A program made the position numbers and the translations under genes. Shown piece after piece: positions 1 to 6,221 of a stretch of DNA of 64,000 nucleotides (position 1 is the first letter of the stretch; each line of letters opens with the position of its first letter). The DNA comes from Actinomycetota bacterium (GTDB lineage Bacteria; Actinomycetota; Actinomycetes; Propionibacteriales; Propionibacteriaceae), in contig JAIUOR010000047.1 in assembly GCA_020161795.1 (NCBI GenBank), forward strand, positions 1 to 64,000. Reading direction: 5' to 3'. The notes under the pieces were generated by a model. It was not told the origin of the DNA and did not search any database. It saw nothing but the letters and a program-made list of their open reading frames with translations.

Positions 1-1242
1 GAAGAACTCCTTCAGCGCCGCAACGACGGGGCGGATGTTGATCAGGGTCTGCGGCGTGATCGCCTCGACGTCCTGGGTGGTCATCCGGTCCCGGACGACC
101 CGCTCCATCCGGCCCAGGCCGGTGCGCAGCTGATTCTGGATCAGCTCGCCCACGGTCCGCAGCCGGCGGTTGCCGAAGTGGTCGATGTCGTCCTCTTCGA
201 CGATCAGCTCACCGCGCGGCGCCTCGAGGGTCTCCCGGCCCTCGTGCAGCGCGACCACGAAGCGGATCGCGGCGACGATGTCGTCGATGGTCAAGACCTG
301 CTTGTCGAACGGTTCGTCCAGACCCAGCTTCTTGTTGATCTTGTAGCGACCGACCTTGGCCAGGTCGTACCGCTTCGGGTTGAAGAAGTAGTTCTCCAAC
401 AGCGCCTGCGCGGCCTCACGGGTCGGCGGCTCGCCCGGACGCAGCTTGCGGTAGATGTCCAGCAGCGCCTCGTCGGTGTTGGCGGTGTGGTCCTTCTCCA
501 GGGTGAGCCGCATCGACTCGAACTCGCCGAACTCGGACAGAATCTGCTCGTTGGTCCAGCCCAGCGCCTTCAGCAGCACGGTGACGTTCTGCTTGCGCTT
601 GCGGTCCAGCCGCACGCCGACCATGTCGCGCTTGTCGATCTCGAACTCCAGCCAGGCGCCCCGGCTCGGGATGATCTTGCAGGTGAAGATGTCCCGGTCG
701 GAGGTCTTGTCGGCGGTCTGCTCGAAGTAGACGCCCGGCGAACGCACCAGCTGCGAGACGACCACACGCTCGGTGCCGTTGATGATGAAGGTGCCCTTCT
801 CGGTCATCAGCGGGAAGTCGCCCATGAACACCGTCTGGCTCTTGATCTCACCGGTGTCGTTGTTCATGAACTCGGCGGTGACGAAGAGCGGCGCGGCGTA
901 GGTGACGTCGCGGTCCTTGCACTCCTCGACCGAGTGCTTGGGATCCTCGAACCGGTTGTCGCGGAAGGACAGCGACATGGTCTGGGAGAGATCCTCGATC
1001 GGGGAGATCTCCTCGAAGATCTCCTCCAGGCCCGACTTGGTGTTGATGTCGGTACGTCCCTCGGCCTGCGCGGCGGCTACCCTCGCTCGCCACGCGTCGT
1101 TGCCGACCAGCCAGTCGAAGGATTCGATCTGGAGATCCAGCAGGTTGGGAACCTCAAGCGGCTCATGGATCTTCGCGAACGAGATCCGGCCACTGGGCGA
1201 GACGACATTGGTGTTCTTCGACGCAGTGCGCGAGACGGCCAA
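1..1242 (-). CDS. rpoB: RNA polymerase beta subunit, N-terminal part (runs off the window)
   Basis: Catalytic beta subunit of RNA polymerase. The 414 visible codons cover the N-terminal beta1/lobe region. Near the start are RISFAKI and [12 protein letters not shown], the standard actinobacterial RpoB opening, and the last visible residues are [11 protein letters not shown], just before the FGSSQLSQFMDQ region that would lie outside. The start chosen is TTG at 1242 with AAGGA about 8 nt upstream; an in-frame GTG nine codons further upstream (1269) is a weaker alternative. The gene is transcribed away from the XRE regulator on the same strand, with a likely promoter at 1342-1370. Identity is certain; only the start is an interpretation. 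Confidence 0.97.
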
Positions 1243-1341
1243 GGTGGAGTCCTTCCAGAGTCCCGGCACGATGCCGGTTCGGTGCACGCAGAACGGCCCG
1301 CGTCAAAAGTCACGGGTCGTCAATGGCATGGGCAAAGCGAT

Positions 1342-1370
1342 AGCCTACCGCGCCACACGGCCGCACGCAA
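1342..1370 (-). promoter_or_regulatory. Candidate rpoB promoter
   Basis: On the minus strand TTGCGT (1370-1365) is followed after exactly 17 bp by TAGGCT (1347-1342), about 100 nt upstream of the rpoB TTG start. Both boxes fit sigma-A-like consensus loosely. The rest of the 284-nt gap before the XRE gene holds the stem-loop at 1424-1478 and no gene I can support. Confidence 0.45.
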
Positions 1371-1423
1371 CTGTGCGTATCGTCGCCGCGGAATCGCGGT
1401 TCGGCACTTGGGGCTGAAATTGC

Positions 1424-1478
1424 TGATCGGTGCTTGTGGCTGGCGCGGGAGGGAGATGCCAGCTTCAAGCACCGATCA
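1424..1478 (-). terminator. Long stem-loop between XRE regulator and rpoB
   Basis: Arms 1424-1444 and 1458-1478 are complementary over 21 positions apart from two adjacent mismatches, around a 13-nt loop. It lies 49 nt past the stop of the XRE gene and about 180 nt before rpoB, so a terminator or processing site for the regulator transcript is likely. The U-run on the exit side is weak (AATTT), so a small repeat element is an alternative. Confidence 0.5.
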
Positions 1479-1526
1479 TGAGGTGTACTCATCCGACGCA
1501 TTTTGGGGGGGCGCCGTTGACAGAAA

Positions 1527-2834
1527 CTACATCATGACTTGACCGTCGGTGTCAACTCCTGATGTCAAATTCCTGCCACAGGATTCGCTGAGCCGGTGAT
1601 AGGCCTCCAGCGCCTGCTTCAGACGGCCGTCCTCCTCGAACAGGTGCGCTGCCACGGCGTACTGCACACGGGCCTCAGGCTGCCGTCCCAGCGCGCACAG
1701 TGCCTCGCCGCGGATCCACTCCGACATCCCCCGGTTGTACTCCGGGTTGCCCAGCACGGGATCGTTCAGCAGCCCGTCGACGATCTCCAGCGTGCGGGCC
1801 GGATCGCCGGTGGCCAGCGCCAGGCGTGCCTGCGCCTGACGGAGATCCACCACGTCGAAGGCGTTGCCGATGATCTCCAGGCCGGTGGAGCTGATCCGCA
1901 GCAGTTCGCCCACGCCGTCGGTCTGGCCGGTGTCGAGGCGGCAGTTCGCCAGACTGCGATGGAACCGCAGCCACAGCCGCAGATCCCGCTGGGGCACGAG
2001 CCACTCGCCGGCCTGCCGGTAGCGCTCCTCGCCCTCGCTGACATCGCCGGCGCTGTAGGCGGCCGTTCCGATCGTCCAGGCGACCATGCCCCGCGCGTGC
2101 GAAGCCGTCAGCAGCGGGATCATCTCATCCAACTGCTGAACGTAGACGTCGATCTCGTCCCGCCCGTGACCGGCCTCAGAAAGCGCGCTGACAAGGGCCA
2201 TTACCGCTTCTGCCCGGATGATCGGGGGTAGCTCGGCGGCGGTCTCCACCGCCCGTGCACCGTAGGCGATCGCCCAGCCGAGGCGGCTCCCGGCGCGGTT
2301 CGCGATCGAGGCCAGGCTCAGCGACTGGGCCCTGGCCACTGCGTGACGGCGGGCGGCCTGGTGCTCGGAGATCTCCTGCGCGATCCGCGCGGCGCTGGCG
2401 AAATCGGCGTTGGCGAAGCGCGCCTGCGCCACGACGTACAACGCCTCCCAGTGCCGGACGCCGTCGCCGGCGACCTGGGCGCTGGCCGCCGCGCGCTCGG
2501 CGTGAGCCTCCGCGGCAGTCCAGTCCCGGTCGTACCAGGCACGCTCGGCCACCAGCAGTTCCTCGATGACAGCCGGGTCGTTGCTGGCCTCGGCGCGAAG
2601 CGTCGCCTCCTTGTCGAAGTGCGTCCGGACGCCCCACTCCAGCGGGGAGACGCCCAACTGGCGGGCGAGGAAATCGATGACGTCGGGCGTGGGCGTACGA
2701 CGCCCGCTCTCCAGGTGGGAGATGTAGCTACCGGAGTAGCGCCCACCGCCCAGTTCGACCTGGGACATCTTCCGACTGCGTCGACTCTGGCGCAGTAGCT
2801 GACCAAATTCCGCGTGGGTCGTCGTGGCTGCCAC
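1527..2834 (-). CDS. XRE-family regulator with TPR-like C-terminal sensor
   Basis: DNA-binding regulator of 435 residues. Residues about 9-65 form a Cro/C1-type helix-turn-helix (FGQLLRQSRRSRKMSQVELG, then SYISHLESGRRTPTPDVI). The remaining roughly 360 residues are Ala-rich paired helices that read as a TPR-like solenoid (e.g. AHAERAAASAQVAG, EARVQYAVAAHLFEEDGRLKQALEAYHRLSE). HTH plus TPR solenoid is the architecture of peptide-sensing regulators of the RNPP/Rgg type, although those are usually shorter. Start is GTG at 2834 with AAGGAG six nt upstream. It is divergent from a gene for a 52-residue secreted peptide with a palindrome between them, which suggests that the peptide gene is the target and the peptide a possible ligand (inference). 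Confidence 0.85.
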   Translation of the reverse strand: MAATTTHAEFGQLLRQSRRSRKMSQVELGGGRYSGSYISHLESGRRTPTPDVIDFLARQLGVSPLEWGVRTHFDKEATLRAEASNDPAVIEELLVAERAWYDRDWTAAEAHAERAAASAQVAGDGVRHWEALYVVAQARFANADFASAARIAQEISEHQAARRHAVARAQSLSLASIANRAGSRLGWAIAYGARAVETAAELPPIIRAEAVMALVSALSEAGHGRDEIDVYVQQLDEMIPLLTASHARGMVAWTIGTAAYSAGDVSEGEERYRQAGEWLVPQRDLRLWLRFHRSLANCRLDTGQTDGVGELLRISSTGLEIIGNAFDVVDLRQAQARLALATGDPARTLEIVDGLLNDPVLGNPEYNRGMSEWIRGEALCALGRQPEARVQYAVAAHLFEEDGRLKQALEAYHRLSESCGRNLTSGVDTDGQVMM

Positions 2835-2867
2835 TGCAACTCCTTCACCTCTATGTCCACGATGAGA

Positions 2868-2884
2868 TTGTCAAATCTTGACAA
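2868..2884. promoter_or_regulatory. Palindromic operator candidate between regulator and peptide gene
   Basis: TTGTCAA (2868-2874), three bases, TTGACAA (2878-2884) is a perfect inverted repeat. A third GTCAA half-site lies at 2890-2894. The right arm contains the TTGACA -35 box of the peptide promoter, so a bound protein would directly affect that promoter. The divergent XRE regulator is the obvious candidate ligand. Confidence 0.6.
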
Positions 2885-2907
2885 GCTAGTCAAGTCTGGC
2901 CTACGTT
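2878..2907 (+). promoter_or_regulatory. Promoter of the small peptide gene
   Basis: A consensus -35 box TTGACA (2878-2883), an 18-bp spacer and TACGTT (2902-2907) lie 40 nt upstream of the peptide start. The -35 is embedded in the palindrome at 2868-2884. Confidence 0.6.
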
Positions 2908-2946
2908 CTATCGCGAGGTACCCATCCGAGTCGCAAGGGAAAGATC

Positions 2947-3105
2947 ATGACCGTTATCCGCAAGATCATCGCCGCATCAGTCGCCGCCAGCGCCATCGCC
3001 CTGACCGTCGGAGCCGCCCAGGCCACCGCCGCTCCGGTCGTGAAGTCCACCAAGACCGTGGTCGCCCTCGGTGGCGGGCAGGGCAACTGGCCGCTCGCGC
3101 GCTGA
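2947..3105 (+). CDS. Small secreted peptide (52 aa), possible signalling peptide
   Basis: Unrecognised short gene. Residues 1-28 are a textbook Sec signal peptide: R5-K6, a hydrophobic Ala/Ile/Val stretch (7-24), and an ATA cleavage motif predicting a cut after A28. The mature part would be 24 residues starting APVV and ending GGGQGNWPLAR, with no cysteine. It has its own RBS (AAGGGA, six nt before ATG), a strong promoter overlapping a palindrome, and a perfect-stem terminator at 3174-3210, so it looks like a deliberate single-gene unit. The divergent neighbour is an HTH-TPR regulator of the kind that senses peptides elsewhere. Pheromone function is inference; a secreted structural or antimicrobial peptide is also possible. 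Confidence 0.75.
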   Translation: MTVIRKIIAASVAASAIALTVGAAQATAAPVVKSTKTVVALGGGQGNWPLAR

Positions 3106-3173
3106 CCCCCATCCCCTATTCGCCGTCGGTCGAGCCCTCCCCCCGGGCCTGACCCCTCCCACCCCCACTGACC

Positions 3174-3210
3174 CTGATCGGCGGAGACACCCCCCGTCTC
3201 CGCCGATCAG
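3174..3210 (+). terminator. Terminator of the peptide gene
   Basis: Perfect 15-bp inverted repeat (3174-3188 and 3196-3210) with a 7-nt loop, followed by CGTTT. It lies 68 nt after the peptide stop codon. Confidence 0.7.
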
Positions 3211-3279
3211 CGTTTCCACCGGTCTGTCGCGCGGGCTGACCCGTCACCCCCGCTGGATCCCGCACCGCGCCACAGACGA

Positions 3280-3316
3280 CGAATGGCGGCAGCCCCCTAA
3301 GGGCTGCCGCCATTCG
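3280..3316 (-). terminator. Terminator of the rplJ-rplL operon
   Basis: Perfect 16-bp inverted repeat (3280-3295 and 3301-3316) with a 5-nt loop, 29 nt downstream of the rplL stop on the minus strand. No strong U-run follows. It may also stop read-through from the convergent peptide gene. Confidence 0.7.
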
Positions 3317-3344
3317 CTTACGCGATATCAGGCGATCGCGATGT

Positions 3345-3737
3345 TCACTTGATGCTGACCGCGGCGCCGGCGGCCTCGAGGGCCTCCTTGGCCTTGGCGG
3401 CAACGTCGCGAGCGACCTTCTCCAGGATCGGCTTCGGGGCGGCCTCCACCAGGTCCTTGGCCTCCTTCAGGCCCAGGTTGGTCAGCGCGCGCACCTCCTT
3501 GATGACCTGGATCTTCTTGTCGCCGGCGGAATCGAGGATCACGTCGACCTCGGAGGATTCCTCGACCTCTTCGGCAGCGGCCTCGCCGCCACCGGCGGCC
3601 GGGGCGGCGGCAACGGCCACCGGAGCGGCAGCGGTCACGCCGAAGGTGTCCTCGAACAGCTTCACGAACTCAGAGAGCTCGATCAGCGTCATCTCCTTGA
3701 AAGCCTCAAGGAGCTCGTCAGTGCTGAGCTTCGCCAT
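3345..3737 (-). CDS. rplL: 50S ribosomal protein L7/L12
   Basis: Ribosomal stalk protein that recruits translational GTPases. The 130-residue product shows all three parts: an N-terminal dimerisation domain ([20 protein letters not shown]), an Ala/Glu-rich hinge around residues 38-62, and the conserved C-terminal globular domain ([20 protein letters not shown]). It lies 23 nt after rplJ, the usual order, and shares its transcript. A strong hairpin at 3280-3316 ends the unit. Confidence 0.98.
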
Positions 3738-3760
3738 GTTTGGGCGTCCTTTCTACGTAT

Positions 3761-4282
3761 CTACTCGTTCGACTGCTTCTGGTCCCGGAGAGCGCCCACT
3801 GCGCGGGCAGCACCGGAGAGTGGCGCATTGAAGAGCCCCGCGGCCTTGGCCAGGTTGCCCTTCATCGCGCCGGCGAGCTTCGCGAGCAGAACCTCGCGAG
3901 ACTCCAGATCGGCCAGCTTCTTGACCGAATCGGCATCGAGCACCCGCCCATCCATGACGGCGCCCTTGATGACCAGAAGCGGATTGGCCTTCGCGAAATC
4001 CCGCAGGCCCTTCGCCACGGTGGCTACGTCACCGCGGATGAAGGCGATCGCCGTAGGCCCGGTGAGTTGCTCATCGAGGCCTTCGATGCCCGCTTCGCGG
4101 GCAGCGATCGTAGTGAGGGTGTTCTTCGCGATGGCGTAGGTGGCGTCCTCACCCAAGGACCGGCGCAGTGCCTTCAGATCCTTGACGGTGAGACCGCGGT
4201 ACTCGGTCAGCACTGCTGCCGCGGAGGTGCCGAAAGCATCCTTCAGCTCCGCGACGGCGGCGGCCTTGTCCGACCTCGCCAT
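3761..4282 (-). CDS. rplJ: 50S ribosomal protein L10
   Basis: Base of the ribosomal stalk; it binds 23S rRNA and the L7/L12 dimers, and represses its own operon in other bacteria. The start is ATG at 4282 ([17 protein letters not shown]), with GGAAGGAG just upstream; an in-frame ATG five codons earlier lacks a separate RBS. The 173-residue product has the family hallmarks [12 protein letters not shown] and the C-terminal helix that holds L7/L12. The long untranslated leader before it carries an L10-type control region and an attenuator. Confidence 0.97.
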
Positions 4283-4329
4283 GGGTCTCCTTCCCACTTC
4301 TTGTTGTGTCAGCCATGTCCCGCCGGCAT

Positions 4330-4475
4330 AGAAAAACCCCGGCGCGCAGGGCGACCCGGGGATTACTCAGAACGAGCGATTCACGTTTCACCTGCGCGGG
4401 GTTTGCCGGCCCTGCTCACGCAGGAACCGAACCAGCGGTCTTCGGCTCCGCCTACTCTACGGGACAGCCCGCCAC
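4330..4475 (-). ncRNA. L10-type ribosomal protein leader with attenuator
   Basis: The roughly 210-nt leader of rplJ contains, in RNA sense, CCGAAGACCGCTGGTTCGG followed by a paired region, resembling the conserved L10-binding kink-turn of the ribosomal L10 leader family. Downstream at 4337-4361 is a CCCCGG/CCGGGG hairpin with five U residues (4332-4336), an intrinsic terminator still ahead of rplJ. The arrangement implies L10-dependent attenuation. The family match is from memory of the motif, not a covariance search. Confidence 0.65.
4332..4361 (-). terminator. Attenuator terminator in the rplJ leader
   Basis: GC stem CCCCGG...CCGGGG (4337-4361) followed by a run of five U on the minus strand (4336-4332), about 50 nt before the rplJ start. 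Confidence 0.7.
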
Positions 4476-4496
4476 CGGCCAAATCCGGCCGGGACG

Positions 4497-4835
4497 CTAG
4501 ATGCAGAACGGGTTGCCCTCCGGGTCGGCCATGACCACCCAGCTTCCGTTGCTGTCCGAGCGACGTTCGGCCAGCCGTCCACCGCGCCGGCAGATCTCGT
4601 CCATCGCGGTCTCCCGGTCGGCGACGCCGCAGTCGAGGCGGATCCATCCCCGCTGTCGGGCGGGCTCGTCGGCCTTCTGGAAGAGCAGCGGCACCAGTCC
4701 CCCGCCAGGCTCGACCAGGACGTAGCCGTTCCCCGTGTCACGGGGTGTACCACCCAGCAGCGCTGCCCAGAATCCGGCCAGCGCCCAGGGATCGAGCGCG
4801 TTGATGGTGACGCAGTTCACCGCGACGAGAGCCAT
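4497..4835 (-). CDS. VOC (glyoxalase/bleomycin-resistance) superfamily protein
   Basis: Small 112-residue protein with one VOC-like unit: opening VAVNCVTINALDPWALAGFWAALLGG, middle WIRLDCGVADRETAMDEI, and the closing VVMADPEGNPFCI typical of actinobacterial glyoxalase-like proteins. VOC proteins fold as paired beta-alpha-beta-beta-beta modules and often bind a metal, but no substrate can be inferred. It sits between rplA and rplJ, isolated from rplA by a strong terminator (4880-4911), so it is probably not co-transcribed with rplKA. Confidence 0.8.
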   Translation of the reverse strand: MALVAVNCVTINALDPWALAGFWAALLGGTPRDTGNGYVLVEPGGGLVPLLFQKADEPARQRGWIRLDCGVADRETAMDEICRRGGRLAERRSDSNGSWVVMADPEGNPFCI

Positions 4836-4871
4836 GCGCCCGACTCTAGGCCCAGTGCCGCCACCGCGCAG

Positions 4872-4911
4872 AAAAAGCGAGCGGGCCCCGTCCGGTTGGA
4901 CGAGGCCCGCT
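4872..4911 (-). terminator. Terminator of the secE-nusG-rplK-rplA operon
   Basis: Stem AGCGGGCC TCGTCC / GGACGG GGCCCGCT (4880-4911, minus strand) followed by CGC and five T (4876-4872). A classical intrinsic terminator 17 nt after the rplA stop. Confidence 0.88.
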
Positions 4912-4927
4912 GGCGGGATCGGTCAGC

Positions 4928-5629
4928 TCACTCCGCGGAGGGCTTGGTCTTGGTCGGATCGACGGCGACGCCGGGGCCCATGGTGGAGGACACCGTGACC
5001 TTCTTCAGGTAGCGGCCCTTGGCTGCGCTCGGCTTGAGGCGCAGCACCTCGTCCAGGGCGGCGAAGAAGTTCTCGGCCAACTGCTCGGTGGTGAACGAGG
5101 CCTTCCCGACGATGTAGTGCAGGTTGGCGTGCCGGTCCACCCGGAACTCGATCTTGCCGCCCTTGATGTCGCTGACGGCCTTGGCGACGTCCATCGTCAC
5201 GGTGCCGGTCTTCGGGTTCGGCATCAGGCCGCGGGGGCCGAGCACCCGGCCCAGCCGGCCGACCTTGCCCATCAGGTCGGGCGTGGCCACGACGGCGTCG
5301 AAGTCGAGGTAGCCGCCGGCGATCTTGTCGATCAGCTCGTCGGCACCGACTTCGTCCGCGCCCGCGGCGAGCGCGTCGGCAGCCTTCTCACCGGTGGCGA
5401 AGACGAGGACCCGTGCCGTCTTGCCAGTGCCGTTGGGAAGGTTGACCGTGCCGCGGACCATCTGGTCCGCCTTCCGGGGATCGACGCCGAGCCGCATCGC
5501 GACCTCGATCGTCTCGTCGAACTTGGCCGAGGCGCCCGACTTGGCCAGCGTCAGCGCTTCCTCGGGCGAGTACAGCTGAGCGGCGTCGATGGCGGATTCT
5601 GCGGCCCGGTAGGCCTTGCTTCGCTTCAT
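4928..5629 (-). CDS. rplA: 50S ribosomal protein L1
   Basis: L1 stalk protein of the large subunit; it takes part in E-site tRNA release and represses the L11 operon in other bacteria. The start is ATG at 5629 ([15 protein letters not shown]) with AAGGAGACC upstream; an in-frame extension of 25 codons has no RBS and is not conserved in character. The 233-residue product contains the family signature around [21 protein letters not shown]. It follows rplK by 91 nt. Confidence 0.97.
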
Positions 5630-5720
5630 ATCTGGTCTCCTTGTCGTTGGTGCGGCCCGCATGTGGGCCGTGGCCAGTCGTGGTGCGGGCGAGCGCCCTC
5701 CCACTGGGTTGGGGTGATGG

Positions 5721-6152
5721 TCAGCCGTCGACGACGACGCCCATGGAGCGGGCGGTGCCGGCCACGATCTTCATCGCGGCGTCGATGTCGTTGGCATTGA
5801 GGTCGGGCATCTTGGTGGTGGCGATCTCACGCACCTGATCGGCGGAGATGGTGCCCACCTTGTCCTTGTTCGGACGGGCGGAGCCGCTGCTCAGGCCGGC
5901 GGCCTTCTTGATCAGCTCGGCGGCCGGCGGCGTCTTGGTGATGAACGAGAACGTGCGGTCCTCGTAGATCGTGATCTCGACCGGGATGATCGTGCCGCGC
6001 ATCGCCTCGGTCTCGGCGTTGTAGCGCTTGCAGAACTCCATGATGTTGACGCCGTGCGGACCGAGCGCGGTGCCGACGGGCGGGGCCGGAGTAGCCGCAC
6101 CCGCATTGAGGGCGACCTTGACGATCGCCGCTACCTTCTTCTTGGGAGGCAT
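5721..6152 (-). CDS. rplK: 50S ribosomal protein L11
   Basis: Large-subunit protein at the GTPase-associated centre, needed for stringent-factor activation. The 143-residue length is standard. Visible hallmarks are [35 protein letters not shown] at the N-terminal domain and the C-terminal RNA-binding domain ending [21 protein letters not shown] lies seven nt before the ATG. It is in the usual order nusG-rplK-rplA. Confidence 0.98.
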
Positions 6153-6221
6153 GTGTGGGTCCTTCGTGTGTTGTGATGTTACGCAGCCGACCTGGAGGGC
6201 CGGCCGTCATCCGAGCAGCCG

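Follow-up and report, generated by a model that had tools for sequence, protein, structure and literature searches.

Near one end of a 64,000-nucleotide (nt) stretch of Propionibacteriaceae DNA (contig JAIUOR010000047.1; the whole stretch is called the window here), a gene for an XRE-type helix-turn-helix (HTH) regulator lies divergent from a small gene for a secreted peptide (Table 1). We confirm that the two genes form a real pairing, more than a chance adjacency, in the family to which this DNA belongs. It is likely, in our judgment, that they make up a self-contained pheromone circuit resembling the RRNPP systems of Firmicutes, in which the secreted peptide would be read by a tetratricopeptide repeat (TPR)-like solenoid of the regulator, perhaps with an RNA as output. 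An earlier note, made from the letters of this DNA alone, had suggested such a pair.

Pairing of regulator and peptide gene

At E ≤ 1e-10, 36 regulators were found in 35 of 197 family genomes. Genome G015 has two; the G171 regulator is split by a frame break, and the second regulator of G015 and that of G029 run off a contig end. Beside all 36 lies a divergent short open reading frame (ORF) with a signal-peptide-like start, intact at 35 loci and frame-disrupted in G058, an 80%-complete genome. The earlier note had named a regulator kept where the peptide gene is absent as the case that would speak against the pairing; that case did not arise, every one of the 36 family regulators having a peptide ORF beside it, and the proposed pairing is upheld.

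A fixed criterion combining a positive N-terminus, a hydrophobic stretch and the core motif picks out a peptide at 35 of the 36 loci, a count to be read with the fact that the core pattern was defined after viewing the family peptides. The same criterion gave 0/85 in regions upstream of long ORFs and 0/4000 in random draws from the window (draws overlapping the locus were skipped yet still counted in the 4000). A secreted-looking ORF alone is common in these controls, at 13.9% of random draws and 15/85 upstream regions. Searching with the peptide only, all eight matches at E ≤ 1e-3 adjoin a regulator. A weak peptide match in G153 has no W core and was taken as chance.

The two genes are also absent together. 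Of the genus members without the regulator, the four examined (G092, G127, G032 and G142) likewise have no peptide at the rplL–rpoB position: in G092 and G127 the rplL–rpoB gap is ∼420–480 nt with neither cassette gene present, and in G032 and G142 unrelated genes stand beside rplL. The location next to rpoB, remarked on in the earlier note, recurs in the family: 29 of the 36 pairs sit between rplL and rpoB, and three more have one of these two genes as a neighbour. The remaining four loci include the second pair of G015, at a contig end, and that of G002, whose contig is 3 kb.

The peptide precursor and its core

The small gene is self-contained and divergent from the regulator gene, as the earlier note had described, and its product begins with MTVIRKIIAAS and ends with GGGQGNWPLAR. 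A hydrophobic stretch follows basic residues at the N-terminus in the manner of a signal peptide, and conservation is concentrated in the C-terminal core. Judged by eye, we agree with the earlier placement of a cut after an ATA motif, which would leave a cysteine-free mature peptide of 24 residues ending in GNWPLAR; secretion of the peptide ORFs was judged from composition, and the cleavage site was placed by eye.

The mature end is conserved, as the earlier note would have it: most family peptides carry a C-terminal G-x-G-x-W with P, K or Y as the next residue. Tryptophan occurs in the mature part of 33 of the 34 tabulated peptides (G080, identical to G175, and G058 are omitted), the exception carrying GGQGSYP, and is found in the first 25 residues of none. 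Four precursors contain the core in tandem, in three to five copies separated by variable spacers: AGGGIWPK five times (G005), AGGGIWYK three times (G029), and three copies each of GEGIWY and ADRGIWY in the two G015 precursors. Residues beyond the core vary among the family peptides. G015 thus has two pairs (L024, L066) whose tandem cores differ, which suggests separate signal channels.

In each of eight closely related peptide-gene pairs, nonsynonymous divergence (dN) is smaller than synonymous divergence (dS), by a narrow margin in one of them (0.15 vs 0.22). On a 75-row tree the peptide types largely track the regulator clades; the type labels were set by hand with some variants lumped, and G002, which bears the main label, sits in another clade.

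The regulator

The N-terminus of the regulator exceeds the Pfam cut-offs for HTH_31 and HTH_3, which places it among XRE-type HTH proteins. In an AlphaFold2 (AF2) model the HTH region is followed by about eight helical pairs (residues 87–418; mean predicted local distance difference test score, pLDDT, 68.6); the input was a two-sequence alignment of the window regulator and L002 only, and confidence in the model is moderate. The earlier description of an HTH plus TPR-like regulator therefore holds, with the HTH established by Pfam and the solenoid coming from the model. The number of modelled pairs falls within the five to nine repeats given for the TPR solenoid of RRNPPA receptors in passages of PMC9765709. 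Foldseek with this model places Rap-CSF at rank 24 and NprR at rank 25 among its matches; no RRNPPA chain occurs among the 19 PDB sequence matches of the regulator profile A1.

Six large solenoid residues (W129, R180, W253, W288, R290 and D327) are invariant among 27 sequences, and by the secondary structure of the model each falls in the first helix of its own pair. In TPR proteins, the first helix of each pair lines the groove. We regard the six residues as weak evidence, dependent on the model, for a conserved ligand site. The genome of the window has a single regulator match at E ≤ 1e-5. A relative with 67% identity is found in G177, a metagenome-assembled genome of the same genus named Propionicimonas sp.

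Operator-like elements at two promoter-like sites

Between the two genes, an array of the form GTCAA-N3-TTGACA-N5-GTCAA covers the −35 of the peptide gene. This −35, TTGACA, begins at position 2878 within the palindrome CTTGACAAGCTAGTCAAG (2877–2894), which overlaps TTGTCAAATCTTGACAA (2868–2884). The consensus −35 of the earlier note is thus present as a sequence; a promoter scan of positions 1–6000 listed no sigma-70-like promoter. The palindrome that the note had seen over it is a family feature: 30 of the 36 loci have TTGACA-N5-GTCAA in the intergenic region, and G002 has an additional, differently spaced copy. Half-sites at other spacings occur in the remaining six (G005, G015, G015b, G029, G045 and G023). 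A genome-wide regulon was considered and rejected: of the two other palindrome sites in the genome, one precedes and one lies inside an open frame, with no visible link.

A second array, TTGAC followed by TTGACA-N6-GTCAA, lies at the 3′ terminus of the regulator coding sequence. At 25 of the 36 loci the regulator stop codon is accompanied by TTGAC-N6..8-GTCAA, and 15 of these 25 have a further TTGAC 11 or 13 nt upstream. In alignments judged by eye, the second element resembles a promoter directed to rpoB. Its pattern occurs within 600 nt upstream of rpoB in 24 of the 30 loci where the pair stands beside rpoB, in none of the 36 family genomes that lack the pair, in neither of two genomes with the pair on another contig (G045, G023) and in 6/6000 shuffles; the genomes are related, and a Fisher value for these counts is not a true probability. 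The element holds its position at the regulator stop codon (−26 to +10), and its distance to rpoB ranges over 284–586 nt.

C-rich-loop hairpins upstream of rpoB

Two hairpins with C-rich loops (hp1 and hp2) follow the second element. RNAalifold on 19 loci gives 23 pairs between this element and rpoB; the 19 are drawn from 26 loci, omitting G080 and G171, near relatives of included rows, and the divergent G064, G048, G090, G030 and G016. In hp2, 12 of 17 pairs show double compensatory changes. Over the whole structure 93.5% of cells are paired vs 82.5% in shuffles, and the covariation score is 0.446 vs 0.228 shuffled (0/500 as high in either comparison), figures biased in favour of the structure, which was derived from the tested alignment itself. 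Structures slid along the alignment pair 31–43%. In this 19-locus alignment (A4), the hp2 loop has an invariant CCUCCC and the hp1 loop three invariant C.

No Rfam family was found at the hairpins (E ≤ 1; window positions 1–6200 plus six loci). Weak Rfam matches, below gathering scores and located elsewhere, were taken as chance. Like the 6C/B11 small RNA of Actinobacteria (RF01066), the element here has two hairpins with C-rich loops. Membership in that class was rejected: RF01066 scores above its cut-off in 0/30 genus genomes with no listed weaker match at the locus, and the genomic place differs. In the Mycobacterium abscessus member B11, as passages of PMC10470900 describe it, either of two C-rich loops is enough to repress a G-tract target. 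Because the C-rich loops of B11 act on a G tract, we propose by analogy that the hairpins may form a regulatory RNA; they could alternatively form an rpoB leader.

This alternative bears on how the RNA relates to the peptide system. The second element and hairpins might together be the promoter and leader of rpoB rather than an output of the peptide circuit, a view that is compatible with a real regulator–peptide pair. They do lie upstream of rpoB on the same strand and look like a promoter plus leader, and no T-run terminator was identified past hp2. Against this view, the element is fixed at the regulator stop codon though its distance to rpoB varies, and it is missing upstream of rpoB in 36/36 relatives without the pair and in the two genomes whose pair lies on another contig. 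We hold an rpoB promoter and leader to be a serious but less favoured possibility; the linkage suggests that the C-rich-loop RNA is an output of the peptide system.

Flanking genes and 3′ hairpins

The features of the locus are collected in Table 1. A perfect hairpin stands 3′ of the peptide gene, where the earlier note had placed a perfect terminator. The perfect stem is there, as a possible terminator; there is no T-run after the hairpin and no entry for it in the terminator scan output. Of 34 family loci, 26 have a perfect stem of at least 9 bp within 230 nt past the stop codon of the peptide gene, compared with 12/500 random segments. Between the peptide gene and rplL there is also a perfect 16-bp hairpin (3280–3316), the longest such stem at the locus in this genome, which is probably the rplL terminator.

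Table 1. Features of the regulator–peptide locus, in window positions
Feature	Position	Strand	Remarks
XRE-type HTH + TPR-like solenoid regulator, putative cytosolic peptide receptor	1527..2834	-	435 aa; ORF, Pfam, AF2, family relatives
Secreted pro-peptide gene	2947..3105	+	52 codons; signal region ~2947-3030; mature 24 residues 3031-3102
Conserved core GGGQGNWP, putative pheromone core	3070..3093	+	Core common to family peptides, tandem copies
Operator-like array over peptide -35	2868..2894		GTCAA-N3-TTGACA-N5-GTCAA
Second operator-like array at regulator 3′ end	1539..1568	-	TTGAC, then TTGACA-N6-GTCAA; promoter-like -35 towards RNA and rpoB
Two C-rich-loop hairpins, putative regulatory RNA or rpoB leader	1425..1516	-	hp1 1494-1516; hp2 1425-1477
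Perfect 13-bp hairpin 3′ of peptide gene, possible terminator	3176..3208	+	Loop ACCCCCC
rpoB, 5′ part	1..1242	-	One cassette flank
rplL	3345..3737	-	Other cassette flank

Related pairs in other actinobacteria

Regulators related to the one described here extend beyond the family. Profile A1 finds them in 48 of 245 genomes of the order at E ≤ 1e-25 (16 of the 48 in the same family) and in 43 of 296 genomes of the class at E ≤ 1e-30, the present genome included; across the phylum, three of 296 genomes, again with the present one, have a match at E ≤ 1e-50. At order-level loci a test for divergent peptides only found one at 1/14, and a later, widened test (any strand or side, with W or two terminal cysteines, -CC, near the ORF end) found one at 10/14; L089, L090, L091 and L099 had no peptide by the widened test. 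Class-level loci, examined by the divergent test, showed a core or -CC at 18/29. Tandem tryptophan cores recur in two other families: GNWPDPM in three and two copies (L104, L105) and VGGSWPT in three (L230).

A second regulator clade is paired with secreted peptides ending in -CC, in divergent, convergent and once co-directional orientation. Profile A3, seeded with 21 regulators chosen for having a -CC peptide, has matches at 66 places (E ≤ 1e-60), spread over 50 of the 296 genomes of the class. A secreted -CC ORF lies within 700 nt at 43 of these 66 places (among L162–L191 and L193–L228); the fair count, with the 12 seed rows removed, is 31/54. The control gave 0/3000 for segments of the window, a single genome.

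Several of these groups show features of their own. In family f23 the divergent region holds a CTGTCATGACAG-like palindrome, and L172, L178, L179 and L181 have a second, convergent secreted peptide downstream of the regulator (..GGSDFCC, ..GGSDYCC, ..GGSLYCC). In f22, in genomes of 7–9 Mb, L231 has a co-directional peptide ending ..QASIEWP and L112 a divergent peptide with DIGWP twice. The f20 peptides (L201, L203–L205, L207, L208, L210 and L212–L214) end variously in CECC, LYCC, GWNHPG, GPLNNAE, PWGYPI and WNGPW. Their leaders are alike and their ends unlike, with mean identities of 34% vs 13% for ten members and 69% vs 22% for four; the identities are ungapped, the members were selected by eye, and so were the non-CC endings (L207, L210, L212, L214). 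Similar leaders with differing ends look like pherotype diversification, to judge from the sequences. At a second f20 group (L216–L220, L222–L227) no peptide was found.

Relation to known signalling systems

Peptide signalling through cytosolic HTH–TPR receptors is described, in the parts of the literature consulted, for Firmicutes/Bacillota and their mobile elements, and passages of PMC10075063, PMC9765709 and PMC12700828 treat the RRNPP family in that phylum. The present system shares with RRNPPA systems (Rap, Rgg, NprR, PlcR, PrgX and AimR; Bacillota) an adjacent secreted pro-peptide and TPR-solenoid receptor, with an HTH in several subfamilies. Repeated pro-peptides are a further likeness: passages of PMC9765709 (Table 3) document them for NprR, Rap, PlcR and AimR systems, and repeated Bacillota pheromone precursors are the subject of PMC11343458, as far as its passages show. 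It differs in its phylum, in peptide ends of the G-x-G-x-W-P or -CC type, in its usual rplL–rpoB location with a linked structured RNA, and in a regulator with no RRNPP model among its Pfam and NCBIfam matches. We would describe it as a system that appears to work like RRNPP and that sequence homology does not place in the RRNPP family.

Signals of actinobacteria are typically small molecules in the literature, as far as its consulted parts go. Passages of a review of actinobacterial quorum sensing (PMC4748050) include ‘TPR’ in a list of putative components for several genera, and contain no peptide/TPR-receptor pair. The searched signalling literature (titles and starts of abstracts, with bioRxiv outside and few subscription papers) likewise contained no actinobacterial pair of this kind. 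The gamma-butyrolactone signalling of Streptomyces, also treated in passages of PMC4748050, is shared ground as autoinducer signalling in actinobacteria; its signal is a small molecule, whereas here a gene-encoded peptide is matched with an XRE–TPR protein. The circuit proposed in the next section differs on the receptor side as well. The gamma-butyrolactone receptor is of TetR type. We know of no HTH–TPR peptide system with a C-rich-loop RNA output.

A proposed pheromone circuit and its rivals

We suggest that the small gene would yield a secreted pro-peptide, which would be processed outside the cell, leaving a short peptide that contains the C-terminal G-x-G-x-W-P core. The short peptide would re-enter the cell, probably via oligopeptide permeases, and bind the regulator at its TPR-like solenoid. 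Import is made possible by seven predicted oligopeptide-binding proteins in the same genome (matches to SBP_bac_5, PF00496), a family also present in 11 of 14 control genomes. The regulator itself may bind the TTGAC/GTCAA half-site arrays, which cover the −35 and spacer of two putative promoters: that of the peptide gene, giving feedback, and a second at the far end of the regulator gene, from which transcription would pass through the C-rich-loop RNA towards rpoB. Because the operator-like sites overlap −35 and spacer, we favour repression relieved by the peptide; a pheromone that lifts repression would produce positive feedback.

Several observations weigh against this reading. No TPR model passes the Pfam cut-off for the regulator, no RRNPP-family model is among its Pfam or NCBIfam matches (E ≤ 1), and the Foldseek likeness, obtained with a query model of middling confidence, is one to TPR proteins in general, with eukaryotic LGN/Pins ranked first. 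In the second element the spacing shifts by 1–2 bp among genomes, which is unusual for a dimer site, and the palindrome is not enriched in its own genome (three TTGACN6GTCAA sites, six for the reversed control). At the RNA, hp1 is without compensatory change (0/6 pairs), and the CCUCCC loop of hp2 is not seen in the five divergent loci left out of the alignment (these do carry C-rich stretches in hp1). Among the relatives, 23 of the 66 A3 places have no -CC ORF, and the related regulators L106 and L107 have no recognisable peptide.

The secreted peptide might instead be an antimicrobial or other effector, with the XRE regulator merely a local repressor that senses something else. Small secreted peptides adjoining HTH regulators are not necessarily signals, and an operator-like site on the peptide promoter would suit such a repressor. 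An effector is harder to reconcile with the setting of the pair in this window, which has rpoB on one side, rplL on the other and no gene for immunity or export in between, and with short repeated cores set among variable spacers. The modelled solenoid, the tracking of regulator clade by peptide type and the similar leaders with variable ends in f20 also speak for a signal, and we consider an effector unlikely. A toxin–antitoxin-like pair of a membrane-active small peptide and an HTH antitoxin or repressor is very improbable: the best NCBIfam match of the regulator HTH is a HipB/Y4mF-type antitoxin model, far under its cut-off, but the hydrophobic stretch is signal-like and N-terminal with conservation at the other end, the cores are in tandem, and an antitoxin has no need of a ∼330-residue solenoid.

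Implications

More broadly, Actinomycetes may own a large unrecognised class of secreted-peptide/HTH–TPR pheromone systems with at least two chemistries (G-x-G-x-W-P cores, in some cases tandem, and C-terminal -CC), of which a Propionibacteriaceae type would be inserted between rplL and rpoB with a second operator driving a C-rich-loop RNA. We offer this wider proposition tentatively, as one whose chances fall a little short of even. A conserved and widespread peptide/receptor class in Actinomycetes, with candidate pheromone sequences readable from genomes, would make communication directly testable with synthetic peptides. If the proposition is true, population sensing in the Propionibacteriaceae would be wired directly to translation control, to the supply of RNA polymerase, or to both.
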